31,557 bases of DNA. Origin: Heterotrichella gracilis (lineage: Eukaryota > Sar > Xanthophyceae > Tribonematales > Xanthonemataceae). Location of the stretch: NCBI GenBank assembly GCA_032358255.1, contig JAULBX010028138.1, positions 1-31,557 of the forward strand, written 5' to 3'. Within the stretch, counting starts at the first letter, position 1, and the number at the start of each line of letters is the position of its first letter. Made by a program: the position numbers and the translations under genes. Positions 9,229 to 31,557 of the stretch are shown here, in pieces. Below the pieces are notes generated by a model. The model was not told where the DNA came from and did no database searches. It worked only from the letters and a program-made list of their open reading frames with translations.

Positions 9229-9386
9229 ATAGCGCACTGCATCCAGGTGGGTCCAAGGTTCTAGGGTGTAGGCTAGGGTTTGTCCACCGGTGCATAGCGC
9301 ACTACGTCCAGGCGCGTCCAAGGTTTTAGGGTGTAGGTCAGGGTTTACTTATTTACCGGTGCATGGCGCACTGCATAATGGTGGGT
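9229..9386 (+). repeat. Three tandem copies of an exon end plus donor
   Basis: The last 18 bases of BTB copy 5 exon 2 (ATAGCGCACTGCATCCAG, 9229-9246) plus the first ~45 bases of the intron recur starting at 9294 and 9363, at periods of 65 and 69 bp. The donor is GTGGGT in copies 1 and 3 and GCGCGT in copy 2. Each intron part carries an AGGGTGTAGG..AGGGTTT string and an ACCGGTGC string. Confidence 0.85.
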
Positions 9387-10282
9387 CTGGGAATCAAACC
9401 GTAAGGTATCCAGAGTTATAACTATGGCGCCTTATCACTCACACAAACACAAACCATGCTGATGCTTACCTAATGTGGATATTAAGTTTATACACGGGTG
9501 TGTGGGCCTGTGTCAGCAGCAACAACCCTGCTGGACCATGCAGCCGTGGCAAATTGATTCAAGTTGCCGCAGCGCATGTTGCGCTGCATACTGGTATGCA
9601 CTGGTGTGCATCACCAAATATGCGCCTCAGGTTTAGGGAGTTTGTAACCATAGTATCCACGCCGATGCATGCCAGCCCTGTCTACCTGTCAGTAACCTAT
9701 CAGCCTATTTCATTGCCTATTTATCAACTTTTGTTCTATCCTGCTTCCAATGGCAACACACAAAAGCAGTTCAATTGGCACTATGCGCCATATTGCACAG
9801 CCTGCTAAGCCTGCAGCGATCTCATTCTGTCTCATTATTTGTTTTACCCAATATAACTTTGGGGACCACATTCCCATGGCCAACAAACTGCTGACACATC
9901 TAAGCTGGAGCCCACGCTCACACTCATCTAAAGCTTTCATTGCATTCCATCCACGACGCTGCTTGCCTGGCTTGCACATGCCTACTCCGGATCCCCCCTA
10001 CCTCCTGCTACTCCTGCGCAGGGCATGTTTACCGAGATCGTTTGGACCATGGGTTACATGGGTTCTGTAGAAGGCAGGCAGCTGAGTGAGCTGGACCCCA
10101 ACATCCTAGGGCACCTTGTGACCTATGCGATGAACAGCAGCAACCACTTTGACCACGGCGGGATCCCAAAATTGCAGCCCGGCTCGGGCTATTTTTCTTC
10201 ATGGGAGGAAACCTATGTGTGGCTGGACAAGCTGTGGGCTCCAGAGTCAGGTGACATCCTCACTATCTTTATGGGCCGCTGA

Positions 10283-11738
10283 ACGAGTCCCCTGCAGCTA
10301 ACCGTGCAATGTAGGGTTTTAGGGTTTATGGTTAGAGTCTGGCCAGACTGGTCCCCATGGGTTTCACACATTAGGGTTTACAGGCTGTTGGAAAATTTTG
10401 ACTCTAATGCTCATAGTGCGCTGGTAATGAGGGAACACCCCGTGGTGCCATTGATGAATTTGTGGACCTTGCATTGACAGCCACTGGTCAGTCCTCATGG
10501 AGAGTAGCTAGCAGTTCATATGCCGCCTAATTTATCTGGAAGTTTTGGCGTTGAATTTCCGATATCCGCGCATGCGTACATATGTATTTACGTCCACTTT
10601 CAGTGGGCATACCAGCCTGGGGTTCAGGGGTGTGGACTTTGGAGGGCTGCCAGCTGGGGATGCCAATCGTATTGGCATTTATTATTGCACAGCGTGCTAA
10701 GCCTGCGTGACAAGTGTTTGTATTCTGGTTGCGCTTTTTCAGTGTGGTGGCAATTTCGGTGTGGTGGTAATACCAGTTTCAGTGTAAACGATTCCAAATC
10801 GCCCTATTTCACTGTGGGCTGTTTTCGAGCTACATTTTGCGCCGACCACAACCAACAAACAGCTGGGACGAACCCTTCCGCCCTGCATGGTTTCTCAACA
10901 TGGGTCTCAACCCTGCGCTGCCCCCATTTGGGAAGGTGGAGTACACACCTTGACAGTGTTTTGTGTGAACCACTGTTTCCCTGGTTTTCCGTGGGTTAGT
11001 GTCTCCCTTGCTGGAGTGTGTCTCCTCTCAGTGACTTCAAAAGGTGAATGGTGCTGTCATATGTTGTGACAAACCCTGACCAAACAGGTGCACACCCAAC
11101 TATTGGTTTTGTCCACTGTGATCGACTGTGTAGTCTTGCAACTGGCAATTGTATCTGTATTTGCGCCACAGCGAGCTACAGGCTGGATGGGTGGTGCATA
11201 TCTGACGGCATGCCACAGATGTGGCGACCCGATTACCATCCACACCGTAAGGGGTGGTGCTGGGTAGGGTTGTAATGCCTTGTCCCTTAAACCTGGCGCT
11301 AGCTAGCTATGTATAGCTGTTGGTATGGTAACGTTGCAGCGTCTACTCCAACCTCGTAGCCCGACTCTCGTCATGACCTGCGGGTCAACAACTGTGGCCA
11401 CGGGGCATACATGAGGGCATCACAAAAGGATGGCAGCTGGTGTGGAGCTGCTCGCGTCTCCACAGGTTCGCGCATTTGCATGCATGCATATATTGCCGTA
11501 CGCAGATGCATGCATGCATAAACACCCTTGGGCTACATGTCACTTACCAAAGTCGATTATAAGCTAGATGCCTACCAGACACTTAACGTAAGCTAGTTGC
11601 CTACCAGAACCTGTCTACTAAACTTCTTGTGAAAGGATACAGTTTTTTGTCTTCCATCCCGACCAAATCAAAACAATGCATGTGTGGGCCCACACCCAGC
11701 AAAACCGCGACAGCCCGCTAGTGGTACAAGGGTTTGCC
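10283..11738. other. Spacer between BTB copies 5 and 6
   Basis: No gene recognised. It contains telomere-type strings near 10315 and 10366, two TGCATGCATGCATA strings near 11476 and 11505, and a short direct repeat (AAGCTAG(A/T)TGCCTACCAGA) near 11562 and 11590. A 159-codon open frame at 10520-10999 shows no motif and no splice partner. Confidence 0.45.
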
Positions 11739-13760
11739 ATGGAGCTGCCCCTGTACTTGGACGAGTCAGCGACCTTGCAGCGCACAAGCAGCAACGTCGC
11801 CAGCCTGGTTGACAGTGCTGACGTGGAGCTCAAAACCATCCCAGCACACAGCCAGGTCCTGTCTTGCTTCTCTGGGCTGCTGTGCTCCCTGCTGACTTCA
11901 GTTAGACAGGGTTTAAACCAGTCCTGATCAGCCCACGTGCCCCTAGGCTTACACCACCCCCATTTGGGTCAGGTGCTGTCTTGCTTCCATAGAGTGCTGT
12001 GCTCCCTTGACCTCATTCAAGGTTAGGTATAAATCCGCCCATGTGCCCCTAGGCTGACACCTTCCCCCTTGGGTCAGGGGCTGTCTTGCTTCTCTCTAGT
12101 GCTGTGCCCTCAACTTGCCTCCTTTAGGGTCAAGGGTTTAGACCAGTTCTTAGACAGGAGCTGTCGTGCTGAAACCCTCAACCCTTAACCCTCAACCCTG
12201 ACAATGCCCTACAGGTGCTGTCCTGCTTCTCTGGGCAGCTGTGCTCCCTTCTGGCCGCCTCTAAAGGCTGCTCTACGGACGGAACAACGCGCATCAACCT
12301 GGACAGAGCAACAGGCCAGAAGTTCAGCTATGAGGACGTGGTGCTGCTGCTGCAACACATGTATGGAGGGCCAGGCAAGCCCGCCATCAAAGACGTGAGA
12401 CACAACCCTCGCCCACCACCTCTGATATTCTGCTGTATAGTGCACCTGTGTACAGATCGAAACGTTGGAACCCACCTGCCACAATCCAGACCGCACTGCC
12501 AACAAGTGTTTCCACTGCTGGGCACAACCAAAATGCCCTTCCCACTATCACATGGACAGGTTTTGGCAGAGGTTGTGGCCCACTCTATTTGTGCACACAT
12601 ACATCCCTTAGGGGGATTCCCCCCCACCCCTCCCCTCCCCCCACCAATAACCCTCCCCCACCCCCCCACCCCCCACCCATGAGCGCAGCGCCTCACTGCC
12701 ATGCATGGCGGGCAGGCCACCAACCGGGCAGCCACCCTTCCACCTGACACGCATGACCGGCTGGCAGCTGACACCCACTGGTGATCATACAAGCTTCACC
12801 ACTTTTCCCTGGTCGCCCTGTGCACGGCCCATACACAAGCAGCGAGGCGCCCCCCACCCCCCCCACCCACCCCACCCCCCACCCGTGTGCAGCTGCAGGA
12901 GGCACAGCGCCTGACTGCCAAGGCCAGGGGCTGCCCATACGTCCAACCAAGGTGCCACCCTTCCATCTCACATGCATAACCTTACAACCCTGACCAGCTG
13001 ACACCCACCGGTGATCATACAAGCCTCCCCACGCTCCCCACCCTATGCGCACAAGCAGCGAGGGAGGCGCCCCCCACCTGCCTACCTCCCACCCCTGTGC
13101 AGCTGCAGGAGGCCCAGCGCATGACCACCCTTGCAGACTTCTTTGACGCCGAAGCTTTGCGCTACAAGATCGAGCTCTACTACGACCACGAGTTCCGGAT
13201 GAACGAGCTGGGCCAAGGGAACCTGCTTGACCTGACAGCCATCGCCAACAAGTGGAAGATGAAGCGGCTCATGGCGCACTGCATACAGCAGATCTTCAAC
13301 CGGGGGCTAGCCGCAGGCACAACTGCGGCTGAAGCAGGTGAGAACCATGAACTAGCAAGGGAAAAGTGGGCAAAACCGGTTAGTGATTTGTTGGATACCA
13401 AGCAACATGTCAGGGCATGACCAGCCTCTGAGGATGGACCTCACTGTGTCTCACAGCCTTACGTTCAATGAGACGCATATAACCAAACAACAGTATTTTT
13501 TTGTTGCAGCTAAGAAGCTGAAGGACCTTGATCCAGCCATCCTGGTAGACATTCTGGCGCACGCTTTGTGCAGCAGCGGCCACCAGCTCCCACCCGTGAC
13601 CGCTGCAGCAGCAGCACCGCAGCGCCATCACTACCACCATCAGCAGCAGCAGCAGCAAGTGGTGCAGCCGCGCTGCGCACAGGCCAGTTTTCCTCCTGGG
13701 CTATCACCTACACCTGGCTGGAGAAGCTGTGGGAGGGGGAGGAGGAGGGGTAGGGCATGA
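11739..13760 (+). CDS. BTB/POZ domain protein, copy 6 (best preserved)
   Basis: Four exons join in frame: 11739-11855, 12215-12394, 13103-13337 and 13510-13760 (260 aa). The start is MELPLYL in a gccATGG context. BTB core: VASLVDSADVELKTIPAHSQ, VLSCFSGQLCSLLAAS, TDGTTRINLD, FSYEDVVLLLQHMYGGPGK (about residues 20-99). The following helical region has ADFFDAEALRYKIELYYDHE, NLLDLTAIANKWKMKRLMAH (about 107-155) and KKLKDLDPAILVDILAHAL. The family's end signature FSSWAITYTWLEKLWEG is present at 13687-13740 but in another frame, after a CAG/CAC-rich stretch (CAG5-CAA at 13641-13657). The in-frame end is therefore an unrelated RGRRRGRA tail, probably from an indel in that stretch. BTB proteins act as dimerising or cullin-3 adaptor modules; no partner domain is visible. 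The first intron is absent from copies 1 and 5. Confidence 0.72.
11856..12214 (+). repeat. Intron built of tandem copies of its exon boundary
   Basis: The cassette AG|G-x-GCTGTC-x-TGCT-TC recurs at 11856 (the donor itself, gtcctgtcttgc), 11973, 12078, 12158 and 12215 (the real acceptor, AG|GTGCTGTCCTGC). Spacing shrinks from 117 to 105, 80 and 57 bp. Copies 11973 and 12078 also keep the 'gtgctgtg' and 'cccctaggctnacacc' parts. The first and last copies serve as donor and acceptor. Confidence 0.85.
12640..13102 (+). repeat. About 210-bp tandem repeats with a decoy exon
   Basis: In the second intron of BTB copy 6, a unit made of a C-rich tract, a 'cagcgc..actgcc' exon start, a 'ccacccttccacctgacac' segment, 'gctgacacccac.ggtgatcatacaag' and 'acaagcagcgag' is repeated. 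The exon-start string occurs at 12686, 12905 and 13115 (the real exon). The middle copy keeps a full acceptor (gtgtgcag|ctgcaggaggcacag at 12893) and reads LQEAQRLTAKARG, compared with LQEAQRMTTLADF in the real exon at 13103. Confidence 0.85.
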
Positions 13761-13901
13761 TGTCTGGTGGATGGGTGGGGGAGGGCTTTTCATGGAGATG
13801 GTCACATGAGGGGGTACATGCTGCGCACATGCCAGTTTTCCTCCTGGGCTACCACCTACACCTGGCTGGAGAAGCTGTGGGAGGGGGAGGAGGACCAGTG
13901 A
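13673..13901 (+). repeat. Tandem duplication of the 3' end of BTB copy 6
   Basis: The segment 13673-13745 (ctgcgcacaggccagttttcc...) recurs at 13821-13893, period 148, with very few changes. It includes the whole SSWA(I/T)TYTWLEKLWEGEE signature. The second copy ends EEDQ and a stop at about 13901. Between them lies a stop and a GGGTGGGGGAGG-type spacer. Confidence 0.85.
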
Positions 13902-14099
13902 AGGAGGGTAGTGGCTGAGATATGGCCCCGGCGACGCCTGGCGAGACGAGGATGATCCATTGTCAAGCGATTTGAAGTGGGTTGTCAATACCCCCGCTCT
14001 CGAATTGACATGGTGGGTCAAGCCGGTCTGAAGCATTCAATACAACACTGGGGACACGCGTGCAACCACAGGTACATGCCTTGCAGAGACACCTCAAGG

Positions 14100-14104
14100 T
14101 GTAA
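14100..14104 (+). terminator. Candidate poly(A) signal for BTB copy 6
   Basis: TGTAA lies about 340 bases after the stop of BTB copy 6 and about 200 bases after the duplicated 3' end. TGTAA is the usual chlorophyte poly(A) signal. The motif alone is weak evidence. Confidence 0.3.
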
Positions 14105-14165
14105 TCCCAGCAATCTGGGTGCCGCATGCATGTGTTTTCAGGATGGTGGTCATGCACCGCGCATG

Positions 14166-14337
14166 CTCACGGCATGTGTTCAGTACGCGTCCAACTGGCT
14201 TAGTAGTACTCGAATGAAGTTCGCCCTACCCTAGATTGTCCAATTGGTTAACCTGGCAGATCTGAAAGTTTAGGTAGGGTGAAGTTCATTCGAGTATTTC
14301 ACAGCCAGTTGGACGCATGTTGAAAGCACGCCGTGAG
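14166..14337. repeat. Foldback element, 65-base arms
   Basis: Arms 14166-14230 and 14273-14337 are complementary over 65 positions without a gap, by eye about four fifths identical. Perfect runs include GCGTCCAACTGGCT and TACTCGAATGAA. The loop is 42 bases. No clear target-site duplication is seen next to the arms. It could be a MITE-like element, a small-RNA precursor or a relic of an inverted duplication. Confidence 0.8.
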
Positions 14338-15690
14338 GATAGAACTAATTTTCAAAAGCGTTATGTTTGGTAGGACAATAGGGCACTGCGTGACGCGCTG
14401 TAGGGAGGCCCAGAGCCACATGGGCTGACCTGGCGTTACGTGCTTTAGCTGCGTTGACACCCTGGCAAGCTTTCGCTTGGCACTCTGCCAATGTGGCACA
14501 TCAGCGATGATTGCAAATTCTGAGGAATTTCCTCTTTGAAGGAATGGAGCGCCACAGCATGTATGTGCACTTGGCCAAGCCTTTGAGGCCCATCCGGTGT
14601 AACACCTTGCAGCAAGCTTTCAAAGACTGTCTAAGACTGGCTTGTCAATGACCAACCATTCAAACGGCCGTTCTGTCAGTGATCTGAGTTTGTAAATTTG
14701 TTCAACGATCGTCTTCATTTGATGAAGGTTCAGCAACGAATGTGCAATATAGGGTGCATTTACAAATAAATTTGAAATAATTGATTTACCCTTCAACTGT
14801 AGAACCGCCGGTTACCTACGGCGTATCGGTGCCAGGTGCTTTCTTTTAAGAATTCACTCTGGCTCAGATCTGAGAGCCATATTTAAAATTTCATACTAAG
14901 TTTGCTATGCTGAAAACACATACTGCATGATTCAATTGTTGCATGCACCTAGCTTGGATACTGCCTATGCGATAGATGTACTGGAGTCCTCGGGACCATG
15001 CCAGTAACAACTGTGGCACTGCAAATACTGAAGTTCACGTGAAGCAAATCTGTTGCAAAACCTTCCCAAAGCATGCGAGGAAAGTACGCGGCGGCCGTAC
15101 TATGGACACTTGGTATTGATAAACACACAATATGGAGGCCATCAAAAATGTGATGGCGGGTGAGGTTTCAAAAATCATAGAAAGCGCTGCACACTACTAC
15201 ACTGCTCAAAAATAGATTGATATGGGCCCCCAGGCGTACTACCAGACCAGCAAACTATATATCTATCATGACTAAAGCCATACCCTATATGCACCCAACA
15301 GAACCATAAGGTCATGCGTTTGGCGTTCATTGTATGCAAAAACAGATAGCGGGTGGATGTACAGCATTCTTTGGTCCTAACAAGCTACAATAATTGGAAA
15401 ATCACACATGGATTGTGGGCAAAGCACAACATCAAGGGTGTTGCTTGAAAAACACTGCAATTGTCTGCTTTCTAAAACCTGTGTACTTGCGGCATTATAT
15501 AGCAGCAGCTAAGCCCCAATATGACCAGCAGATGCACGCCCCGCCACCTGCTATCCCCAGCAATTCTGGAAGTTGCCATCGCCCCTCCCACATGCCCATT
15601 CCTTGCACAGGCACCTGCCCTCATGTCACGCTCAAGCACTGTGGCTGTGCCGCTATGGCACCAACACAGGCAGCTACCCCACAGCTGCAG

Positions 15691-18600
15691 TCACTGCTCC
15701 TCCTCTCTCAAGCTCTCCAGCACCTCATCCAGGTGGCGCAACTCATCCCGCTCCAGCACGTACAGGTGGTGCGTGCGCAGGTACAGCACCACTGACGCGC
15801 TGCACGCCAACAGCTGCATAGCCGCTAGCATAAGGAGGGAATATCTGCGGGGAGCAGCAGAAGGGGGTATGAGATGATGGTGTGTGTGTGGGGAGGGGAT
15901 TGGGGGTGTTAATCAAGGGCTACTATTATTTTGCCCTTGCTGAGTGCCGGGGTTGGAGGGTGCCAAAGAAAAGTTGCTCATTTTAAAGTGTGAGCCATGC
16001 CTAGACATGGATCCAAAGTAGAAATGCACGACTTCTGTAACCTACACCTAAGTGCGCAGGTCGTCCTGTTGCGCTGTGTACAGCAGGCAGGTGGCCTTTT
16101 TGTCTTGCCAGTCATCCTGGCCAGCCCACATGCACTGTCGCGCCAGAAGTGGGTAGTGCACCCCAACGTGTGCACGCAGAGGTGGGCAGTCCATCCAGCA
16201 CATGTCAATCACGCACGCCTGTGCTTGCAACCATGCGCCCACCTGTAGCAATCCGACCCTATGCAGATGTCAAAGGGGTCCTTGTGGCGGCGCATCACGT
16301 GCGCATACACCCCCCCTGCCAGCCGCGTGTTGAGCAGGTAGTTTGCCACCGAGGGGCCAATCTGCAGCATGGAGTAGTGCGTGGCAAAGTGCTCCAGGCC
16401 AAACAGCTCCGACACCAGGGCCGGCATGAGCGAGAAGTGGGCGCCCAGGGTGAAGCCGCACAGCAGGGAAGAGGGGTAGAGCAGGGCCGGGGTGGCAAAG
16501 GCGGTGAAGAGGAGGTTGGCGGCGGCAATGGCGGCAACGATCGCCAGGAAGATTGACCTGCGGAAGAGGAGGATGGGGGGCTTGAGAGTGGGTGGCAGCG
16601 GCTGTGGTAAGCAAGGCGTTGGGGTGAAGGGCATTGAATTCTTTAAGAGGCTTTACTGGCCAGCTTTAATTCTCTGCGCTTATCGCACTGTGGGGACAGC
16701 AATGAATGATGGTCAAGCACAAAGCAACCCTTCTATCCGCATCGGTGACAACATGTCAAAGCAGCCAGCGGCAGCAACTTCAGCCAGGAATATCCACAGA
16801 ACTGATGTGCCGCCAAGCTTGCAGTGGGCGCATATGCCGGACAGCTAATTTTCCATGCAGTACATTTGCAAAGATGCTTCTAAATTCCATGATTTATCAC
16901 ATAAAAATAATATGCATATTTTTCAATATTCATATAAAAACTGTGACTGTAATCCTGTTAACTCCGGCAAATACTCCACAAACGAAGGTGTAGCCAGTAT
17001 TCATACCTTGCCGTGCCATACTTGTGCAGCACGTGCTCCGGGCCAAACCCCCCGACCAGCCTGCCCGCCGCATTGGCCACCGAAAACAGCGACACATACA
17101 CGTCCTGCGCGTCATGGTGCCCCCCCAGGCTCTGCACCAGCTGGCCAAAGTTGTTGAGCAGGGTGAGGTTGGCACCCGTGCCCACGAAGAAGGCCAGGAA
17201 CAGGAGCCAGAAATCCGTGGATTTCAGGCATTTCGAGGGGGTCATGTCTGGCAGCTCGGTGACTGTGACACTGCCTGGGTGCAGGCGCTTGATGAGGGGC
17301 TCGGTGGGGTCGGATTGGTACTCGTCCCAGGGGAAGAGCATGGGTTGGGAGGGTGGGGGTGGGGGTGCGGGCGCGTGGAGGAACTCCGCTGAGGTCCAGG
17401 AGAAGCTGACCTTGGAGCTGCACCTGAGAAAGGATGCAAGACAAAATAGGGATTAATCACTTGTCGGATCGTTGATTTTTCTTGATGAAGGGATTGAATT
17501 AAACTATAATTACAAGCAGTAATAGGACAAAGCAGAGCAACATTTCAGGGACGGGCACCACAGAGACAAAACAGAAGCAGGATTGATAAGAACAGGGCCC
17601 CAATAAGAATAGGGGCAGGAATGCAGGCAAAAATCCTTACACCTCAAACAGAACAGGTGCAGGACGGGCAGCAAAATGGGGGCAGGAGCCGCACCTGATG
17701 GAAGGCCCGCTTTCCGTGTCGGCCACATAGGGCACCCGGTTGACCCGAGTCACCTGCTGGCCCACATTCTCAGACCCCGCGCCCGACCGCGCATGAGGGG
17801 GCGCCAATGCGCCCCCCGTGATGAGGTGGCTCAGGTCGGACCCCGACCCCGAGGGCGCGTGGTGCGTGAGGGTGATGCCCGGCGGGATGGGCAGCGGCTG
17901 CAGGTGGCACTGGCTGAGCCCCGAGATGGAGATGGGCAGGCTCGGCTGCCTGCTGACGGGGCTGACGGGGACGTCCACGGAGCGGCGGGGGTTGGGGTTG
18001 AGGTTGAGTGAGGCCCCCATGCGCCTGCGCTCGTTGCTGGCCACAGCCAGTGAGGCCAGCAGGCGGGCGTCCTCGGGCAGGAGGTGGGCGGAAGACGGCG
18101 CCCACGGGGTGATGCCGCCACCTCCACCACCACCAGCAGCAGCAGCAGCGCTGGTCCCTGCCCTGGAGGAGGCGGCTACCCAAGGGGGGAAACCGCCACC
18201 GCCACAGCCACCAGCACTTGCGCTGGAACCTGCCCTGGAGGGGCCCGGCATCCAAGAGGACGGCCCACCGCCAGCACCTGCGGCAGCGCTGCTCCCTGCC
18301 CTGGGTGTAGCGCCCCCCCTCGCTGCCAAGCCAGCCGCCGTGCTGGCTGCCACGCTGGGGATGCCGCTGGCACTGGTCACAAACGGGAAGGGCGGGTGGT
18401 AGCCTGGCTGTGCACCGGATGGATTTATCTCTGCACCTAGGGGACCGATGCCCTCGACAACCGACCCCCATGGCCCCTCCCTGCCGCCGCTGCAGCTGCG
18501 GGTGTGTCGGGGCATGCCCACCGGGCGCGCACCCTCCTGCGTCTCGCTCGCGCTCCTCCCCCCCAGCGGCAGCCGGAGGGTGGCGGCGGTCGGGATGGGC

Positions 18601-21768: not shown

Positions 21769-24359
21769 TTACAGCTTGTTGAACGCCACCACGTCGATGG
21801 ACTGGATGTTGTCGGACTCGCCATCCCTCACCAGCTCCTCCTCAATGATTGCGTCCATGGACTCAATCTTCACATCCTCAATGATGGCGGTGATCTGCAT
21901 CTTCCTGATGCCGTAGCCGATGGGCACCAGCTTGGCTGCAGGGCAAGGGGTTTGGCTTAGGGTTTTGGGTAGGTGTTAGGGTTTGGGCAAGGCAGTACCA
22001 TGAAGGCAATGACTAGAGCCTGCCTGATGCTTTGCAAATGTGACACGTGCATAATTTCCACTCAGAAGCTGCACGAATTTGCGCATGCAGAGTGCTGGCG
22101 CTTGTTCTTCCCAAGCTGCTGCTAAGTGCCAACCCCGTGCTTCCATGAAAGCCGCTGAGACGACCACGGCATAAAGCTCCTTAAACTGCTTGGCGCCGCG
22201 TGTTCAAACCTGAATGCTGATATGGCTATAAGTATATGATGCATGACATTAACTACCTAAGATTACGCCAGGGCATGTAAGTCACCAACTAGCACTACAG
22301 CCAAAGAGTGCTAAATTGCATGTGACTAGTTAACTGGGTATTGCCCAACGCACCTGCGCCCCACAGCAGACCGTCCTTGACGATACCGCGGACCTCCGCC
22401 TCCAAGGCAGCCATGTCTGCAGCAAGCACACACCCAGTTCAGAGAAAGGCAGGTTGTGTGTTTTTGGACACTCCTGGTGGATGCATGCCACCTGTAGCAC
22501 ACATGTAAGTATAGCTGCAAGGTCAGGCAAATTGGAGACAGCCCAACGCCCCACGGGAACTGACTCCTGCCCTCCAGCCAGGCATGGCATGTGCTGTAGA
22601 AGTCACTTTGCTAACGTCACATGTTGCCCAGTGGCGCAGAGTTGCAGCGTGTGTTCCCTAGTTGAAAACCCCTCAACATGAGGCAGGCAAGTGCACGCAC
22701 CGGTGGTGTCGTCCCATGGCTTGACATCCAGCACAATCATGGACTTGGCCTTGGCGGCGCCTGCGCGTGCCTTTGCCATCTTTGACTCAATCGCTGCCTT
22801 CTTCTCCTCCGCTGCCTTCTTCTCCTCCTCGGTCAGCTCGCCAAACAGGTCAAGGTCATCCTCATCATCATCGTCCTGCAATGTGACAAGGGTTTAGGGT
22901 TAAGGTCGTGGAAAAGGGTCACGGGTCATCGTCATTGTCGTCATTGTCGTCCTGCGAGGTGACAGGCAGCCCTAAGGGTTTCAAGGCCATGAAAAGGGTC
23001 AAAGGTCAACATCAGGATCATCATTCTGCACAATTAGACAGCGTTTAGGGTCCAGGATTAAGGTTCGGTATATCGGCTGTTGATGCCCACTGGCCTTTGC
23101 AGGTGAAACAGTGGTACCAAGATATGGTCAAGGGTTGTAAACAGCTTGATGAACGCTTAAAAAATAGTCAGCACCATATCAAGGCCTTCTGCAAATACCT
23201 TCACATGGGTGCAACTTTAGCAGAGTGAAACTATGCTCGCGCATGCAAGCAAGGCTGGCTGCTGATCTGTAATGCATGCAGCTTGCGTACCATGCCATTG
23301 CAGACATGCAACACACCCGTCTGATCTAGCGACCAACAGACACTGAGCACACGTGCAGCTTCAGAGACTTACAGTGATGTCCTTGCCCAAACCCTCCTCA
23401 GCAGCAGCAGCAGCAGGTGGGGCATGCAAGGGCGTCCAATGACTGGCTGTATTTCAGCCGTGCACATGACTCCAATACAATATGAACAGCCACTGTGGTC
23501 AGATGATGGCTGCTCATAGTGATTAGCACTGTGCAGTTTCAGGGACTTACGAAGATGTCCTTGCCCATGTCCTCCTCCTCCTCCTCAGCAGCCGGGGCAG
23601 CGGCTGGGGCGGCGGCGGCGGCGGCAGCACCAGCAATGCTCACACCGCTGCCTGCGCCTGGGAAGCTGCAGCAAAGGAAAACAGTGGGTTGGTGAGGCGG
23701 TGCTACTGTACTGACCCACAAGAATGCAGAAACATTTGAGCAGCTGGTGGTCACTGGGTACAGCCAAACAAGCAATGGCACATGACTACAATGTCTGCAA
23801 GACTACAAGGAGTCAATCCTGATTAGGACCACTGTTGACGTATCACTAGTTGGTGTGGTGTACAACATTTCCTCTGATGTGTACTGTTTTATGTAGGAAA
23901 CAAGGCCTCACCTGGCACCTAGCAACGCCTGGATGTGCTTGAACCACCGGGCGGCATGTGGGTAGGCCTTGGCGTCTGGGGCACCAGCCAGGGAGGAGTA
24001 GCAGGCAAGGTCATCGCGGGATGCCTGGAACCTGCAGCGGTAAATAGAAAGGTGAGCCTCCGGCCGTGGCCAACGCAATACCGGAAAGGAATGCTCGTGC
24101 TGGGGTGTGGTGCCATCACACTGATCCAGCCACCACTGAGTGATGAGCACCATGTGACTGTCTAGGTTGGACACCGTGCTTCATACGGACAACAGGGCGT
24201 AGGGTGTCACAGCAGGACTGTAAAGACATCGTTATATTCCTCCCTCGTTTGCTAACTCATGCATATTCGCCCTCACCCGTCGATGTAGCTGCGTGTGAGC
24301 AGGTACTCGTTGAGGGCAGCGAGGCCCTCGGCAGTCTTGAGATCGGGGAAGGCAGGCAT
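21769..24359 (-). CDS. EEF1B: Translation elongation factor 1-beta (eEF1B GEF subunit)
   Basis: Exons on the - strand: 24359-24277, 24031-23912, 23665-23551, 22875-22701, 22416-22354 and 21935-21769. They join in frame to 240 aa, near the usual 210-230. The protein is the guanine-nucleotide exchange factor that reloads eEF1A with GTP in the cytosol. The N-terminal GST-like part is [24 protein letters not shown] and [13 protein letters not shown] (residues 1-67). An Ala/Pro/Glu linker follows, then the acidic [14 protein letters not shown] (107-120) and the Lys-rich [14 protein letters not shown]. The C-terminal exchange domain has [33 protein letters not shown] and the end [10 protein letters not shown]. 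The penultimate Lys matches the yeast eEF1B Lys that enters the eEF1A magnesium site. An optional 24-nt exon may lie between exons 3 and 4 (23373-23396). It is divergent from CHLP. Confidence 0.93.
22861..23040 (-). repeat. 75-bp tandem triplication of the acidic exon's start
   Basis: Just upstream of the acceptor of eEF1B exon 4 (exon start 22875) are two more copies, with acceptor-like CAG before 22951 and 23025, at periods of 76 and 74 bp. On the - strand they read [14 protein letters not shown] and [12 protein letters not shown], compared with [11 protein letters not shown] in the real exon. Intron sequence (AAACCCTTGTCAC-like) is co-duplicated. Confidence 0.8.
23373..23396 (-). other. 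Possible 24-nt microexon in eEF1B (duplicated exon 3 end)
   Basis: On the - strand the bases read EGLGKDIT between an AG (CTGCTGAG) and a strong donor ACT|GTAAGT. It copies the end of exon 3, [14 protein letters not shown], 178 bp upstream in transcription. The homology continues about 30 bases into the intron and back through a CTG/Ala run. Phase 0 at both ends means inclusion would add eight residues without a frameshift. Whether it is spliced in is unknown; the acceptor is poor because a CTG repeat takes the place of a pyrimidine tract. Confidence 0.4.
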
Positions 24360-24779
24360 CTTGATTGGGCAATGGGGAATGCAGCAACGGAGTGTAGAGG
24401 AATACAGGGAGGTTGCATCCTGCTCAAAGGATATGTCGTGAAAAAAATGTTCCACTTGGCGGCTGATGCGAGGATGGCAGCTGAGTTGGTGCAGGCTCCC
24501 AAACCCTCTAGGGTTTGGCCAAGGCATGAACCCTAGCCTAGGGTATTGCCGACTTATCCTCAGGGGGAGATAGCACAATTACGTGGGGAAACAGGGTCAT
24601 CCAGAAAATCTCCCGTGCCCACTCTGATGTGGCAGCGCCTCATTGGGCCATCGGTTCCAGCCAACCCTACCCGATAGCAGCCCCGTCTGCCCAAACAAAA
24701 GCTTCCATTCTACAGCGTTTACGCTTGTCTTTGCGCATCGTTGGAACCCCCCCCGACGATTACCCGGTTTCCAAACACT
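24360..24779. promoter_or_regulatory. Divergent promoter region of eEF1B and CHLP
   Basis: 420 bp separate the two start codons, which point away from each other, so both promoters and 5' leaders must lie here unless there are 5' non-coding exons. It contains two palindromic telo-box-like sites (24499-24518 and 24530-24544). No clear TATA box was seen. Confidence 0.6.
24499..24518. promoter_or_regulatory. Palindromic telo-box-like element
   Basis: CCAAACCCT, CT, AGGGTTTGG: two telo-box-like halves (AAACCCTA type) facing each other. Telo-boxes are known in plant promoters of translation-factor and ribosomal-protein genes. A second palindrome, ACCCTAG C CTAGGGT, follows at 24530-24544. The role here is inferred from position next to eEF1B. 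Since similar strings also litter introns in this window, they could be unrelated repeats. Confidence 0.4.
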
Positions 24780-27700
24780 ATGGCTTCCTCAGGACTGCAT
24801 GCGCAGAGCGCCATCGCTGGTGCAGCCGTCAGCGGCTCCCGGCGCACCGTGTCTAGCGGGGCAAAGACCGTGCCAGTGGCCAAGCTGTCTTTGAAGAAGT
24901 TCAACGGCTTCGTCGCCGGCAAGAACGCTTCTTTCTCCGGCCAGACAGTGGCCTTCAACGCACGCACAGCCACTGTCTCCCACAGGAACAGCACGCTGAC
25001 TGTCCGTGCAGTGAGGGATGGCGCTGTGCTGGACAGGCCTCTGCGTGTCGCAGTGATTGGTGGCGGGCCCGGGGGTGCCTGCGCTGCAGATGAGCTCGCC
25101 AAGAACGGCATCGAGACCTACCTCATCGAGCGCAAGATGGACAACTGCAAGGTGTGTGTTGGCATACCTGTGGCAGTGCCAGTGGTTGTTGTAGCTGTTG
25201 CCATCTACGCAACTGGTGGAAGATGTGGGTGGTTGTATCGCCTGCGATTCTGCTTGTTTTATGCTGTATATCTGTCCAGACAAATACTGGCTTGTTTTTT
25301 CTTTCTGGTGCCTGGTGCCTGCCTCTGACCCACCTGTGTGCTCAAGATGGAGCAAACTCCCAAATCACGTAACTCACACCTTGTCCCCTCCCTTTCGCAG
25401 CCCTGCGGTGGCGCCATCCCCCTGTGCATGATCGACGAGTTCGACCTGCCCCCAGAGATCATCGACAGGAGGGTGACCAAGATGAAGATGATCTCCCCAT
25501 CCAACAGGGAGGTGGACGTGGGCAGGACCCTCAGCGAGACCGAGTTCATCGGCATGTGCCGGAGGGAGATCATGGACGACTTCTTGCGCACCCGTGCCAA
25601 GAAGAGCGGTGCCAACGTCATCAACGGGCTGTTCATGAAGCTCGTGCAGAAGCAGGCTGACGGCCCCATCACCATCAACTTCAACAACTACAAGGATGGT
25701 GGCAAGGTGGGTGACTCACCACACCCAGGTGGCTAGCTAGCTAGCTAGCCACCACACCCCTCGTTGTAGGCTGAACCACCTGCCTCTACCTGTGGCCTTT
25801 GCATGGCAACACTGTGTCTTATGCGCTTGAAGCGCCTTCCACATCTGCGCTGTACCCGGCCTTGCTTTGCCAACTTGGTAACACCCCTTTCATGTCCCAC
25901 TCCCTGCCACACACACCACCCCTGTTGACTGACCCTGCTGGTCCTCGCCCCCAGGTCGGCGTGCCCGAGTCTGTTGAGGTCGACGTGGTGATTGGTGCTG
26001 ACGGTGCCAACAGCCGTGTGGCCAAGGAGATCGATGCCGGCGAGTATGACTACGCCATTGCCTTCCAGGTGCGCTTATGTTCTAGGCATGCGTTTATATT
26101 AATGCAGCCAGGGTAGGCGAGTGGAATTTGAGGAGGGTGGGTGTGTGGGTGCTGTGCCTTAAGCCAGCCTGCCTGTCTTGGCGCTGCCTATTCCTCTGCA
26201 TCAGCGGTTGAAGGCAGCTAAATCTAAGCTATGAGCTTGCAGCTGTGCAATGGAATGCCGTTTACTAGCAACTACAAAGACAATTATGGCTACCAAGCCC
26301 AATACCGCAATGCGTAGGCATACAACCTCTGCCATTGACCAACCACCCGCTGCCTCCTTGGAGGAGCGCATCCACATCCCTGCTGCCAAATTGCAGTACT
26401 ATCAACTCAGTAAATGTGCCCCAGGAAGCTCAACCATTCAAATCTCAGTATAACCAACTAACCACACCGCTGCCTCCCTAGGAGCGCATCCGCATCCCTG
26501 ATGACAAGATGGAGTACTACAAGGACCTCGCCGAGATGTACGTGGGTGACGACGTGTCACCAGACTTCTATGGCTGGGTGTTCCCCAAGTACGACCATGT
26601 GGCGGTGGGCACAGGTGCGAGCGGTGGGGGGTGGGTGGGTGAAGAGGGTGTGTGTGTGTGGGGGGGGGGGGGGGGTGGAGGGGGGTGAGGTGGTCCAGAG
26701 CAGGGGCTGATATGTGTGGGTGGTGGTTCAAAGCTGGGGAGGTGGAAGATGTGGTTCTTGAGAACGAGGAAGTGGGGGGAGCGGTTTGCTAAGCTAAACG
26801 CTTGCTTTGGACAGTCCCATGCAAGGTATACTCAGTGACGAGGAACTGAGACACTTACATGCCTGGGCAATGTTCCTTTCAGGGTAAAGGCTACCCCCAC
26901 CTTAAAACCTGGTCCTTACAGGTCCTATGGGTACCCGCCTTGCTGCCTGTTCCATCGCTTGTGTAGATACCGTGGTTCCTAACATTCCAGCGTGCGCCTG
27001 CGCCCCTGTCAGCACCACAGCCGCCATCAACCCACCCTTCCCTCTGACCCCTTCCCCACCTCCCCCAGGCACTGTGGTGAACAAGACCGCCATCAAGCAG
27101 TACCAGCAGGCCACCCGTGACCGCGCCCAGGTGAAGACCGAGGGGGGCAAGATCATCCGCGTGGAGGCGCACCCCATCCCAGAGCACCCGCGCCCACGCC
27201 GCGTGCAGGTACGGACAGATAGTTGGGCACAAACAGACCTACCATCATTATTTAATCACTGCAACACAAGCAGTCAGCCTTCCACAGCAGAGCAAGTCTG
27301 TCCTGGCAGTTATCTGTAATCATCTGCAGAGTTTTAGGTCTACGCCTAACAACAGCGCAACAGCTCCGGTACAGGGCGCATCACCCTGGGTGCGGCAGGG
27401 CCACAGTGTGCTCCAGGGAGGGGAACAGCACTGTGTATGGGTTGGATTGGTTGTGGTTGAACGCTCAGCGCAAAACACGCCCTGTTGCGCACTTATCATC
27501 TCAAAAAATCATCTCGTTGCGCTGACCTCCATCCACCCCCCACGTGCAGGGCCGCATCACCCTGGTGGGTGACGCCGCGGGCTACGTCACAAAGTGCTCG
27601 GGCGAGGGCATCTACTTTGCCGCCAAGTCTGGTCGCATGTGTGCCGAGGCCATCGTGGAGGCCTCCCAGAAGGGCAAGCGGATGGTTGGCGAGCAGGACC

Positions 27701-28354
27701 TGCGGGTGTACCTTGACAAGTTTGACAAGAAGTACTGGGCCACCTACAAGGTGCTGGACATTCTGCAGAAGGTGTTCTACAGGTGGGTGCGAGCAAGGGT
27801 GGTGGTGGTGGCGGTGGTAGTGTATTTTAATTTGGCCGGGCTGGGGTTAGGTATATGTGTGTGGTGGGAATGAACCCCTGTCGCGTGGTTGTCGTCAAGC
27901 ACTGGCCTGGTGTTGTGGCAAGTGCATAGCCATGATCTAACTGCTTGGCGCTGCTTTGCAAGCCTCTCAGTAGTGCCGGAACGCCCCTGACTTTTGGTCC
28001 TTGTATGGCCCTTGCACAAGCTACCTGTGCTGTTGTACGCTTGCAACATGGCTGCACCCTCGCCCCCTTCCCCCTCTCCCTCTCCCTCTCCCTCACCCTC
28101 CCCTCCACCCTCTCCCGCCCAGGTCCAACCCCGCGCGCGAGGCCTTTGTGGAGATGTGCGAGTCCACCTACGTGCAGAAGATGACCTTCGACTCGTACCT
28201 GTACAAGACGGTGGTGCCCGGCAACCCCCTGGACGACGTGAAGCTGCTGGTGGACACCGTGGGCAGCCTACTGCGCGGAAACGCGCTGCGCACCGGAAAG
28301 GGCGTGAACGTCACCTTTGGCAGCAAGGGCAACGAGGAGCGGGTGGCGGCCTAA
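24780..28354 (+). CDS. CHLP: Geranylgeranyl reductase, chloroplast (CHLP)
   Basis: Exons: 24780-25151, 25401-25706, 25955-26068, 26482-26614, 27069-27208, 27550-27782 and 28123-28354. They join in frame to 509 aa. The enzyme reduces the geranylgeranyl chain to phytyl for chlorophyll and tocopherol, using NADPH and FAD in the plastid. Residues 1 to about 75 are rich in Ser, Ala, Lys and Arg without acids, a typical transit peptide. The FAD-binding motif VAVIGGGPGGACAADEL (about 91-107) is followed by the acid in LIERK. PCGGAIPLC opens exon 2. Then come VTKMKMISPSN, VIGADGANSRVAK, MYVGDDVSPDFYGWVFPK, KIIRVEAHPIPEHPRPRR, the second FAD motif GDAAGYVTKCSGEGIYFA (from about 362), KVFYRSNPAREAFVEMC and SYLYKTVVPGNPLDD. 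All are family hallmarks and all are intact. The ATG at 24780 is the first in frame. Confidence 0.95.
25728..25753. repeat. 26-base perfect palindrome in a CHLP intron
   Basis: GGTGG, four CTAG-type units, CCACC: a perfect self-complementary sequence near the start of CHLP intron 2. It could form a hairpin near the donor at 25707. Confidence 0.85.
26339..26402 (+). repeat. Decoy copy of CHLP exon 4 start
   Basis: In CHLP intron 3, 118 bp upstream of the real exon 4 (26482), the sequence CGCTGCCTCCTTGGAG|GAGCGCATC... reads ERIHIPAAKLQYY, compared with ERIRIPDDKMEYY in the exon. The upstream intron end (accaaccacccgctgcctcc) is also copied. The acceptor AG is kept. Using it would alter the protein and read on to a stop codon. 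Confidence 0.85.
26649..26675 (+). repeat. (GT)n-(G)16 tract in CHLP intron 4
   Basis: A GT repeat runs into 16 consecutive G, within a wider G-rich stretch (about 26615-26700). It may form G-quadruplex structure and is prone to length errors in sequencing. Confidence 0.8.
27365..27425 (+). repeat. Decoy copy of CHLP exon 6 start
   Basis: In CHLP intron 5, 175 bp upstream of the real exon 6 (27550), GGTACAG|GGCGCATCACCCTGGG reads GRITLGAAG, compared with GRITLVGDAAG in the exon. Further matching bases (cacagtgtgctccaggg against cacaaagtgctcgggcg) follow. The acceptor AG is preserved. Confidence 0.8.
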
Positions 28355-28367
28355 GCAGGGGCTGGGT

Positions 28368-28560
28368 GGGCAGGGTTTCCGCTGGGGTTTGGGGCTGGGG
28401 CTGAGGGGTGCAGCTTTGGGAGGATGCCTTGCCGTCTGGGACACAGGCTTTCTACAGGCTGCACAAGCCCTTGGGCAGGGTTTCCGCTGGGGTTTGCTGG
28501 GGGTTTCCAGTCGGGGTTTTGAGGTGCAGCTTTTGGAGGGTATCCTCTTTCAGCGCTCGG
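28368..28560 (+). repeat. 105-bp tandem duplication after the CHLP stop
   Basis: GGGCAGGGTTTCCGCTGGGG occurs at 28368 and 28473, both followed by matching 'gaggt/ggtgcagctttgggagg' segments. The duplication starts 14 bases after the stop codon, so it is probably in the 3' untranslated region. Confidence 0.8.
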
Positions 28561-29374
28561 GTGCAGAGCGCCAGCCAGCTGCAGCTGCCCGTTTTTTGGG
28601 GAACGGGGGTAGGTGCTGTCTCTCCTTTCTGGGTTGTGTGGGTGCCATCGCCATGGCTTGGGGCTTTTGATAGTTGCAGCGGGACCATTCACAGTAGCTC
28701 TGGCAGTGGGGCTTTGGGGCAGGCCAGCAGTGACCACACCAGGGCTGCTGTACTGCACGCAACACCGCGGGCATGGGGGACCTGACTCGTTGTCATCTAC
28801 CCTTTCTACGGCAATGCAGTTTGTCACCAGCTGTATCTAGAACACATTGGGTCAGTTCCAACAGGCATATTTATGTTGCTGCCTGCCGCACGTCACAGTC
28901 TGTGCAACAGACCCTTCTTTACCGCAATTTGTTGCTATTTCCACTGCAGTGGCTTTGGGACGCAGTGTGCAGTTAGCTAGTAGGCCCCTCTAGTAGGTGA
29001 GAAGAGACCCATTCAAGCTTGTCCTGCAGCAAGGGCACATAGCGCTGCAGCACTCCCCTTGTACTAGTATTGGAGTAGTTGTTCGGCTTGTAACAACTAC
29101 CACCCAGAACACATCCTGTGCATATGTGCAGCCCTAGGCAGTGCACGAGTGACTTTGAGCTACAAAGGAGAACCCAACTTGAACTTGGGGACGCCCTGCA
29201 AGAGGAAGTGAGTTGGTATGTGGCTCCAAAGCATGATGCTTTCGTTGAGTGTGGCAGCGTCTCAGGCCGGCGTACGATGGCATGAGGACAACCAACACCT
29301 AGGCTGCTTCGTCAGAGTATGCCAACCTGCGAGCACGATGCGCAACGGCTTTCCCATGCGTATAATTTCGGGTC

Positions 29375-29392
29375 GGTGTAAGATCTTACACC
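29375..29392. terminator. Palindrome with TGTAA on both strands
   Basis: An 18-base perfect palindrome, GGTGTAAGATCTTACACC, places a TGTAA poly(A) motif on each strand. It lies almost midway between two converging genes, about 1.02 kb from the CHLP stop and 1.04 kb from the BRCT stop. Use as a shared poly(A) site is inferred. Confidence 0.35.
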
Positions 29393-29435
29393 CAGTACTT
29401 GTAAAGTTTCGCAAAAAGCTCTAAACAACTGTACT

Positions 29436-29457
29436 GGCCAATTTGGCCAAATTGGCC
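29436..29457. repeat. 22-base perfect palindrome
   Basis: GGCCAATTT-GGCC-AAATTGGCC: a perfect self-complementary sequence built from overlapping GGCCAA units in the convergent spacer. Confidence 0.8.
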
Positions 29458-30436
29458 CAACGAGTGTAATCAATCGGTTGATTATCAATTATCAAAACCA
29501 GGCGCATAATAAACGATTAGTCCTCCCCGTCGTTTCGTATGCGGCACAGGCGGGGACTGTCGGCCCGCTGCAGCCGCGCCTGCACTTTTCCAGCTGCAGC
29601 GTGAGTACGCCACACCCTAGCCCCCCGCTCTGGCAATGCTCGTAGACTCTACGACTACGACGTAGAGAGCTCAACTAGCCTAACCAGGCATGTTACTCCA
29701 ACCCAGATATACCCAACATCCTATCAGACATACGGTACTCAGTTGTCCTCAAATGTTGATGTCAACATCCTGTGAGCTCACATACAGTCCTGAGCTTGGC
29801 GTTGACATGACATCCAAGGCCTGCCATCCGGAGGCGTTGCCTGCCAGGCAGTGGCGAGTAGTGCTTTTCGAACCACTGCCTTGGCTAACCACCATAACCT
29901 TTCCTTTGCTACAAGAAGGCCTGGCAAACCCTATGCCCGCTTGCCTGTACTTCTGTAAAGAACTTGCACCAGTTGTTGCATTGAAAGGAACTGCCATTAG
30001 CCATGTATCTAGCCTACCCTGCAGCACTGCTGGTTTCAACTGCTGGTTTCAACTGCATGTACTTGAATACCCAACATCCACCACAAGTCCACCTGCTTGC
30101 GATGCAGGCCAGTGCTTGCGGTATGCTGGCACCTCTCTTCCTACGCATTATCAGTACACAATCTATTTGCACACCACGAACTTCAGGAAATCCATCGCAA
30201 CCACAAGGAACACAGGGGCTAGATAACAACGGATTGGAAGAATGGTATAAGATGGAAAGCCCAAGCTAAAACGATACTATCTAAGCTGGATCTCGCCTTG
30301 GAAGCCTATCCTAATCAGAGCACCCTTGGCCCCTCCCCCCGCCCTCAAGAGCTACCACAGTGTGTGTTTGCATGGGTTGCAGCTCACCCAGCCGTGCTCC
30401 GCAGGAACCAACGCTGTGTGCTGATGCTGATCATTG

Positions 30437-31557
30437 CTACGCCACCAGGTACTGCTCCAGCGGCGGCAGCTCAAACCTCTCTGCCGCCACCAGCAGCCAC
30501 TCCTCGTGCACCGTGGGGGTGGTGGGGGGCAGGGAGGGGGGGCGCGCACCGCCGCCCGTGATGACACACAAAGATGCGGCCTTCATGCTGACGACCTGCC
30601 AGGGAGACACACACAAACCTGGTCAGTAATGGATGGTTAATCCTACCCCTGAAACCCTACCCAATGATGATGCACAGCCAGCCACACTTCACGCTGACGA
30701 GGAACACACATGCCCGCAAAATTGGAGGAGGGGTAAAATATAATCCTCAAACCCTATGATGACCCGATGATGATGCGCAGGAAGGTCCTTTTATGCTGAC
30801 GCCCTGCCAGGGAACATGCGCAGGCATGGTTTTGTCTTGAGTGGCCACTATGGATTTGCCATGACCATCCTGCCACAGTTTATCATTGGGCATGTGGGCT
30901 GCATCCCCCATGCCTTCGCCATCCCAACTCCGCAACTCCCCACCCAAACCACCGCTGCCACCTCTACCACCACCCGCCCCACCTTGCCCCCAAGTGCATT
31001 GATGAGACGGCGCAGCGAAGGCGCATTGTTGTTGACCTTGCCACCCCGCCGGGCGCCGCTGCCACCCTCCCCTGTGTGCACAACTATCGCCCGCCCCTGC
31101 AGCAGGGGGGGGGTGCCCGGGACCTCCTGTGCCTGGCGGGCCTTCTCGGATGCCTGCTGGAACCGCAGCTGCAGGAGGGAGGGAAGGAGAGGAGTGAGTT
31201 CATCCTCCAGGAGAAAGGGCGCAGGTTTCTTGTGCGGGATTGTGTAGAGTGCCAATATTTACTGGGGTTTGGGATGGTGCAGTATGAGTTTCCTCTGGTA
31301 GAGTCAGATGCAGAGCACAACTACATCCATTCCAACGCAGCCAGTGGAGCAGTCAGCAGTTGTATATCTCCTCCCTCCGCAAGGGGGTTAAACAGCTGTA
31401 TCATGGCAGTGATTCTGCTGTTTAACCATCCGCGATTTGAGATCCTGATGATACACATATAACAGGGCAACGGCGCACCCCAAACTCTCAACCCTAAAGT
31501 CAGGGACTGTCCTTCAAGTGTATTACATCCTGCGTCGCACCCACCTTGGCCAAGTAT
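30437..31557 (-). CDS. BRCT-domain protein, C-terminal exons (partial)
   Basis: Exons on the - strand: 31557-31545 (partial, ends YLAK), 31168-30983 (62 codons) and 30595-30437 (52 codons plus stop). All joins are phase 0 with GT-AG borders. The reading LLQGRAIVV..., APSLRRLINALGGK, VVSMKAASLCVITGGG, VHEEWLLVAAERFELPPLEQ, YLVA fits a BRCT domain: the hydrophobic first strand, the helix ending in GGK, the strand before the H-x-x-W helix with its invariant Trp, and a terminal L-P-x-x-x-Y. BRCT domains bind phosphopeptides or other BRCTs in DNA-damage and cell-cycle proteins. The preceding QASEKARQAQEV segment is helical. Which BRCT protein it is cannot be told, as the rest lies beyond the right edge. 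Confidence 0.72.
30676..30830 (-). repeat. Tandem copies of the last BRCT exon's start
   Basis: In the intron before the last BRCT exon, the 'CTGACGAC..TGCCAGGGA' acceptor region (real at 30588-30605) recurs at 30694 and 30796, periods 106 and 102. On the - strand the farthest copy has an intact CCCTGGCAG acceptor and reads GVSIKGPSC, compared with VVSMKAASLC in the exon. The middle copy has lost the acceptor. Confidence 0.8.

Follow-up and report, generated by a model that had tools for sequence, protein, structure and literature searches.

The origin of intron sequence is mostly obscure, because source sequences decay. Duplication within a gene is a known supplier of intron sequence, cited for example for segments with entire introns; the duplications described here likewise supply intron sequence from within the gene, but their units are short exon edges. 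In plants, small tandem duplications are said to arise from adjacent nicks (reportedly Schiml, in 2016).

Intron gain by AGGT tandem duplication has been described for ATP2A1 (Hellsten 2011, as cited in PMC3443670 and PMC4974935). As in that system, to the extent that these two papers summarize it, the gene BTB6 of the present locus has a repeated AG|GT exon head, an intron start that matches the downstream exon, and intronless paralogues; unlike in that system, nearly all copies here span or border a splice site that was already there, with one clear birth among 294 introns. In potato RdRp, a tandem duplication over an intron-exon boundary made a new intron as a single case (PMC4974935). There as here, the boundary-crossing unit brings splice signals into the new copy, whereas here about one fifth of introns are involved and the inner copy is concealed in an old intron. 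Fill-in and end-joining of staggered breaks is a known route to small tandem duplications, and is CST-dependent in mammalian cells (PMC8355091). Those CST-Pol alpha duplications resemble ours in their short adjacent units and in having no common repeat family, but tandem arrangement is supported here in only about half of the pairs. In mammals, interstitial telomeric repeats are inserted at double-strand breaks (PMC2246262, PMC7215372); as outlined in these sources they too are short internal runs of the genome's own telomere repeat, whereas those reported here cluster near intron edges and tend to accompany exon-edge copies. New here is that telomere tracts are tied to splice edges and to edge copies; intron gain via AGGT duplication was already known.

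Exon-edge copies within and beyond the window

The window, a stretch of 31,557 nucleotides, is one contig of the 68.5-Mb assembly of a trebouxiophyte-like alga. We compared introns and their flanking exons with themselves in the window and 22 ten-kb stretches, where a self-trained gene finder gave 294 introns and 588 exon edges (BTB and BRCT are labels taken from the first-pass annotation). Left out were 3 of 25 stretches, all from contig C1, which has long ORFs of bacterial type and a GC content of 0.33-0.36; 6 of 51 gene predictions, whose coding score was ≤30; and 28 of 322 introns that lay outside 70-2500 bp or had a flanking exon <20 bp. Under loose self-alignment scoring, shuffled DNA yielded about as many matches as the real sequence, and stricter scoring took its place.

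At a score ≥115, 58 of the 588 edges matched their own intron, against 0.07 expected when introns of other genes served as control, which bears out the earlier proposal that each copy derives from its own exon. Lowering the score to ≥105 gave 58 of 294 introns with an edge copy (about one fifth; CI 15-25%). Donor and acceptor edges were alike in this respect (31 and 33), and the duplicated edges were spread over 25 of 44 genes on both strands, a single gene accounting for 13 of the 64. The junction was crossed by 60 of the 64 matches; the other four were left out of the analyses of layout, period, inner sites and edge share, leaving 60 pairs. The recognisable unit had a median of 46 bp of exon plus 27 bp of intron, and the copies had decayed to many different degrees. 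A scan of 251,557 bp for local direct duplications (score ≥100) found 156, versus none in one dinucleotide-preserving shuffle. Decayed exon-edge copies are therefore real, genome-wide and common beyond the window, as the first-pass annotation had anticipated from the traces in unrelated genes.

All five places that it had named (BTB5, BTB6, eEF1B, CHLP and the BRCT-labelled gene) contain edge copies (Table 1), but its view that the window stands out in their density did not hold: at ≥115 the window had copies at 7 of 60 edges (expected 0.00), the other stretches at 51 of 528 (p=0.65). The acceptor-edge duplication of BTB6 is absent from the counted edges because the gene finder made its inner copies small exons. 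The CHLP exon-6 acceptor copy had been overlooked. A middle copy in the BRCT-labelled gene appeared only under the discarded loose scoring and is unsupported. The notion that duplications are confined to introns needs correcting, since local duplications also occur at the 3' end of BTB6 (13672/13820) and in the 3' flank of CHLP (28384/28500).

Table 1. Anchor genes and duplicated exon edges in the window
Feature	Position	Strand	Details	Match or basis
BTB5 donor-edge array	9229..9387	+	exon tail, donor and a stretch containing TAGGGTTT; 3 copies, period 65/69	28/32
BTB6 intron 11856-12214 with flanking edges	11853..12264	+	AGGT-containing exon head; four decayed copies (11853, 11970, 12075, 12212), spacing 117/105/137	36/41
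BTB6 acceptor-edge duplication	12720..13125	+	ahead of exon at 13103; spacing 210-230	self-comparison
eEF1B gene	21769..24359	-	6 exons; PF00736 at residues 152-240	anchor for gene models
eEF1B exon-4 acceptor edge	22845..23038	-	true exon end 22875; AGGGTTTAGGGTT adjoins splice site; copies at 22921, 22995; spacing 76/74	35/46
eEF1B exon-3 donor edge	23353..23595	-	true edge 23531-23595; copy 23353-23417; spacing 178-187	53/75
CHLP (geranylgeranyl reductase) gene	24780..28354	+	7 exons	anchor for gene models
CHLP exon-4 acceptor edge	26338..26519	+	exon start 26482; copies at 26338 and 26457, the inner one 26338-26401; spacing 119	49/59
CHLP exon-6 acceptor edge	27369..27608	+	exon start 27550, edge ~27544-27608; inner copy ~27369-27422; spacing ~175	45/65
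BRCT-labelled gene acceptor edge	30559..30830	-	predicted exon 30446-30595; inner copy 30768-30830; spacing ~209	42/56

Intron birth at AG|GT

The start of the BTB6 intron matches the start of the downstream exon at an offset equal to the intron length (359), with a score of 139, and swapped controls gave 0 matches at ≥70. Four paralogues (BTB1, BTB4, one on contig C37 and one on C35) have uninterrupted sequence at this site, BTB4 with an in-frame stop close by, and a paralogue on C96 carries at the same AG|GT a 434-bp insert with more copies and CCCTAAA tracts. At the level of sequence, these comparisons show the predicted BTB6 intron to have been born by AGGT tandem duplication. Across the 294 introns, the signature of an offset equal to intron length was found in this one clear case and one weak case (score 68) and was otherwise absent. 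Intron birth by AG|GT duplication is thus rare here, and the copies lie mostly within existing introns; the making of introns, in the earlier suggestion that such duplication "makes or lengthens introns", applies to few of them.

Telomere-repeat tracts at intron edges

The most enriched intron 8-mer is CCCTAAA/TTTAGGG, concentrated at splice sites and unmentioned in the first-pass annotation. CCCTAAA arrays also stand at the start of seven contigs, and the intronic tracts are runs of the genome's own telomere repeat. The repeat is present in 96 of 294 introns, namely 41 of the 58 duplicated versus 55 of the 236 others (odds ratio 8), and the association of tracts with copies persisted under within-gene permutation (30 vs 14.3, p≤0.0002). 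Thirteen of 33 acceptor and five of 31 donor matches lie in introns that have no tract. In 150 introns lacking edge copies, tracts counted by intron and orientation numbered 15 in 10.5 kb of donor zones, 14 in 13.5 kb of acceptor zones and 14 in 37.8 kb of intron middles. Among the matches listed in open-licence literature (e.g. the best 15 of 2,266), none tied the telomere repeat to splice edges.

Direct repeats flank 53 of 157 tracts in introns but only one of 33 outside genes, so a tract alone is insufficient. The idea that copies are joined at a telomere tract was not borne out: the copy-copy join abuts a tract in 14 of 31 cases, with 16.9 expected and hence no excess. Splice-site strength did not differ between edges with and without a tract (p=0.66 and 0.74). 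Tentatively, and with considerable doubt, tracts and edge copies could be two outputs of one repair route at splice edges, in which breaks in transcribed genes are handled by telomere fill-in or by telomerase.

Alternative readings and a proposed route of intron growth

Might the process be aimed at splice junctions or transcribed genes, for instance through breakage at R-loops or at telomere tracts beside splice sites? Edge-crossing clusters make up 50 of 66 duplication clusters (76%), or 62 of 78 (79%) counting exon-versus-noncoding clusters, and uniform placement of the unit predicts 52% (p=0.0001 for 50/66). If pairs with one constrained copy are visible twice as long, however, the expected share rises to 68%, which leaves p=0.23 for 50/66 and p=0.04 for 62/78. 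Purely non-coding clusters are four-fold denser in introns than between genes when corrected for length (17 in 76.8 kb vs 4 in 71.8 kb, p=0.008; by plain length 16 vs 4, p=0.11), so a uniform process is no full account, and the tracts near edges of introns without edge copies also speak for targeting. On the other side, edges show no excess when neutral sequence is compared: identity of ≥85% is reached by 4 of 45 pairs at edges, 4 of 17 intron-only clusters and 0 of 4 intergenic ones, a comparison in which the alignment overruns unit ends and under-scores edge pairs. Most of the edge excess is accounted for by the longer visibility of pairs in which one copy is constrained; junction targeting is unproven, and we judge it unlikely.

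The second alternative dispenses with tandem duplication: a break would be repaired by inserting another copy of the edge, together with new, partly telomere-like filler between the copies. The gap between copies had a median of 44 bp over all 60 pairs and exceeded 100 bp in 14, and in 29 pairs the spacer had no detectable relation to the repeat. Two pairs of 98% identity, L025 and L026, are separated by spacers of 87 and 109 bp, for which simple recent tandem duplication is inadequate; by eye, these two spacers include telomere-like runs. A telomere tract lies between the copies in 31 of the 60 pairs. Against such filling, the copies adjoin head to tail to within 15 bp in 17 pairs, a repeat-related spacer (p≤0.05) separates those of 14 among the remaining 43, and the distance from tract to join is no closer than chance. 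Four-copy arrays were seen in BTB6 and, by eye, in intron 54. The earlier description of all copies as tandem is thereby supported for 31 pairs, tandem arrangement being undetected in the other 29, and repair by copy plus filler is doubtful as the source of the copies.

It is improbable that the copies are retained because they act as decoy splice sites or as poison exons that make splicing unproductive. The inner GT or AG is retained in 46 of 59 cases versus 65% expected (p=0.04), and if the inner site were used, 52 of 60 pairs would acquire a stop codon and four more a frameshift. This dinucleotide excess is weak, however, and the choice of junction-crossing alignments favours retained sites; non-coding sequence would contain stops in any case, and the periods of the 60 pairs showed no clear bias toward multiples of three, remainders 0/1/2 occurring 24/17/19 times.

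An artefact, whether of the assembly or of the self-trained gene finder, is very improbable. The finder did merge eEF1B with the neighbouring gene and seemingly predicted some inner copies as exons. Yet the copies' varied decay and the near absence of matches in shuffled DNA and swapped introns speak against it, as do four duplicated edges in the two hand-built genes and ten of the 13 in a nitric oxide synthase gene, which fall within the Pfam domains PF02898, PF00258 or PF00667. CHLP aligns with a Trebouxia protein at 80% and gap-free at both duplicated edges. The PF00736 match does not include those of eEF1B, and a flavodoxin match covers 161 residues vs 143 profile positions, a surplus that is probably a copy wrongly taken into the gene model. 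No second haplotype for dating events was found with pieces of CHLP and nitric oxide synthase, which match only themselves. Introners or other mobile elements with intronic copies would explain why many introns share a motif (96 of 294), but what they share is the telomere repeat of this genome, and each duplicated segment matches its own exon, exon edges giving 0.07 matches per set in the introns of other genes, which makes such elements extremely improbable.

These observations suggest instead that short duplications, hidden by splicing, may lengthen introns and now and then create them. Local duplications of short units, mostly at spacings of 65-240 bp, would arise often in this alga's genes, presumably from staggered breaks by fill-in and end-joining. 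A unit spanning a splice site would be tolerated because the spliceosome is expected to go on using the outer site, as before the duplication. Removed with the intron, the inner copy would decay and leave a longer intron behind, and where, rarely, a duplicated exon piece contains AG|GT, a new intron would result, as in BTB6. Edge-crossing pairs would stay visible about twice as long because protein selection holds one copy, which would largely explain their dominance in what is seen. Intron edges that carry tracts may be more prone, perhaps through easy breakage or binding of the CST-Pol alpha telomere fill-in machinery. We hold this whole account, from local duplication over the splice site and decay of the spliced-out inner copy to rare intron birth and tract-prone edges, with moderate confidence.

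The source of intron sequence is visible in about one fifth of the sampled introns, which by extrapolation would amount to about 16,000 introns. Because the copies span many ages and one gene family shows the intron both present and absent, this route of intron growth and birth becomes countable in one genome. If tracts and edge copies do come from one repair route, the telomere machinery would continually lengthen this alga's introns and occasionally create them.

Prevalence of exon-edge copies

The first-pass annotation had placed decayed copies of the adjoining exon edge in introns of the genes it labelled BTB5, BTB6 and BRCT and of eEF1B and CHLP in the window, and these were recovered at each place, together with one further copy in CHLP intron 5. 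The assembly containing the window, its contig C562, comprises 68.5 Mb in 903 contigs, and the 80% identity of the CHLP protein to one from Trebouxia marks the source as a trebouxiophyte-like green alga. We sampled the window plus 22 of 25 fetched ten-kb stretches (~0.4% of the assembly). The three left out (L004, L005, L024) came from contig C1 (894,458 bp) and had a bacterial look, with low GC (0.33–0.36) and long uninterrupted ORFs, one with what we take to be a resemblance to homoserine dehydrogenase; this contig is most likely a bacterial contaminant within the algal assembly. A simple hidden-Markov gene finder, trained on CHLP and eEF1B, yielded 45 retained genes out of 51 with 322 introns, 294 of them within the size filters (588 edges). 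Each edge was represented by at most 60 bp of exon plus 15 bp of intron and compared by alignment with the remainder of the same intron, with introns from other genes (200 sets) as control.

We found that 58 of the 588 edges matched their own intron at a score ≥115, as against a control mean of 0.07 and maximum of 1, bearing out in the sample the excess that a genome-wide process would leave. At ≥105, 64 edges matched (31 donor, 33 acceptor), in 58 of 294 introns; 60 of these matches crossed the junction, and offsets ranged over 47–359, one equalling the full intron length. At least one duplicated edge occurred in 25 of 44 genes, and 47 of 274 introns still carried copies once the richest gene was removed. 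The window, whose density had seemed outstanding, was no richer than the rest (7/60 edges vs 51/528 elsewhere, p = 0.65), and extrapolation, ignoring contaminant contigs, gives ~16,000 such introns in the whole assembly. One duplication across an intron-exon boundary is described in an earlier paper (PMC4974935); among the matches listed, drawn mostly from non-subscription literature, none described a genome with such copies in one intron out of five, and none described telomere tracts at splice edges.

The gene models held at the places checked, namely CHLP, whose alignment to its homologue is gap-free at both duplicated edges, and the nitric oxide synthase gene on sampled stretch L016, where 10 of 13 duplicated edges lie within Pfam matches. 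The flavodoxin match in the latter exceeds the profile by 18 residues, probably an inner copy called as exon. The finder also seems to have taken inner copies for exons in BTB6 and on L021, and the count of duplicated edges is therefore probably too low.

Features in the window and in sampled stretches (L handles)
Feature	Location	Observation
BTB4	window 8300-8540	In-frame stop within conserved stretch; may be a decaying copy
BTB6 intron	window 11856-12214	Four exon-head copies along its span
BTB6 terminal coding segment	window 13672-13894	Repeated beyond itself, 97% identity; duplication outside introns
eEF1B (- strand)	window 21769-24359	PF00736 match outside duplicated edges
CHLP, geranylgeranyl reductase (+ strand)	window 24780-28354	7 exons; protein 80% identical to Trebouxia protein
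CHLP 3' flank	window 28384-28539	40-bp local duplication, spacing 116
Nitric oxide synthase gene, algal	L016 (G000:C32:100001-110000)	Oxygenase, flavodoxin, FAD-binding domains (PF02898, PF00258, PF00667); predicted to have 25 exons; the sample's richest gene, with 13 duplicated edges
Predicted ligand-gated ion channel in alga	L007 (G000:C3:150001-160000)	Neur_chan_LBD and Neur_chan_memb; three duplicated edges
Copy pair	L025:5926-6144	98% alike; unaligned spacer 87 bp, telomere-like runs by eye
Copy pair	L026:5-207	98% alike; unaligned spacer 109 bp, telomere-like runs by eye

Layout and placement of the duplications

The 60 junction-crossing pairs had a median offset of 121.5 bp, a median exon part of 46 bp and a recognisable intron part of 27 bp. 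That the copies are tandem, as first described, stands for part of them: recognisable copies lie ≤15 bp apart in 17 pairs, and among the 43 with a spacer, 14 have one related to the sequence expected after or before the unit (p ≤ 0.05 vs other introns; ~2 expected). The other 29 show neither sign; they may be tandem pairs of greater age, or else copies set apart by a spacer. Of the 60 extended alignments, 14 were examined, and several of those continue into the next copy. The pairs on L025 and L026 are possibly young copy-filler-copy events. In mammalian cells, small tandem duplications arise from CST-guided fill-in at breaks (PMC8355091).

Self-comparison of the sample DNA gave 156 local direct duplications, whereas shuffled sequence gave none. 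They fall into 88 clusters, of which 50 cross an edge, 16 are confined to introns, 12 are exon-versus-noncoding, 6 lie in exons and 4 are intergenic. Units placed uniformly along introns would give an edge-crossing share of 52%. Decay would run at about half the rate where one copy of a pair is under selection, and doubling the visibility of such pairs raises the expectation to 68%, vs 76% seen (p = 0.23), or 79% if exon-versus-noncoding clusters are included (p = 0.04). Doubled visibility thus covers most of the edge excess, so that junction targeting by the duplication process may occur but need not be invoked. Purely non-coding clusters were denser in introns than between genes after length correction (0.22 vs 0.06/kb; 17 v 4, p = 0.008), with a plain comparison giving 16 v 4 (p = 0.11).

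Telomere repeat in introns

Among intron 8-mers with 15 or more occurrences, enrichment was strongest for rotations of CCCTAAA/TTTAGGG, very probably the true telomere repeat because five-unit arrays of it start contigs C70, C140, C526, C609, C717, C770 and C824. AAACCCTA occurred 145 times in introns vs 5.1 in shuffles, TTAGGGTTT reached 0.86/kb in introns, 0.20 between genes and 0.03 in exons, and the heptamer was present in 96 introns, vs at most 39 for any of 19 scrambled heptamers. ATGCATGC, which is unrelated to the telomere repeat, was also intron-enriched (87 v 15 in shuffles). Intron tracts are mostly no further than about 60–80 bp from a splice site or from the copy of one, and this holds in introns lacking edge copies too. 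The TTTAGGG sense was rare before acceptors (9 v 27 introns, compared with 23 v 21 downstream of donors; p = 0.02), as would be expected if its AG created decoy acceptors.

Tracts were present in 41 of 58 introns with copies vs 55 of 236 others (p = 3e-11), and at edge level the link persisted both without the two richest genes and under within-gene permutation (30 v 14.3, p ≤ 0.0002). Direct repeats flanked 53 of 157 intron tracts, 36 of 629 random intron positions and 1 of 33 intergenic tracts. The tracts may give rise to the copies, or tracts and copies alike may be signs of fragile intron edges. Joining of copies at the tract itself was rejected, joins within 10 bp of a tract numbering 14 of 31 vs 16.9 by rotation.

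Intron birth and function of the copies

The start of the BTB6 intron copies the head of the downstream exon, and the offset between the two matches the length of the intron. No interruption is seen at this site in the window's BTB1 and BTB4 or in the paralogues on contigs C37 and C35, and the C37 paralogue retains an undivided CAGGTGCTG. At the same AG|GT, the C96 paralogue carries a 434-bp insert whose splice sites are predicted from the alignment; within the insert lie CCCTAAA tracts and more copies of CAGGTGCTGTC, three by eye. The claim that such duplication makes introns thus finds its case in BTB6, and among the 294 introns only one other fits, weakly.

Splicing at the inner site would introduce a stop codon for 52 of the 60 pairs, and copy periods had no clear bias to multiples of three. 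Inner splice dinucleotides were retained in 46 of 59 cases vs 65% expected (p = 0.04), a weak and biased signal. The copies are most likely passively tolerated. The BTB6 intron, with intron-less and intron-bearing states within one family, fits a Rogers-type route.
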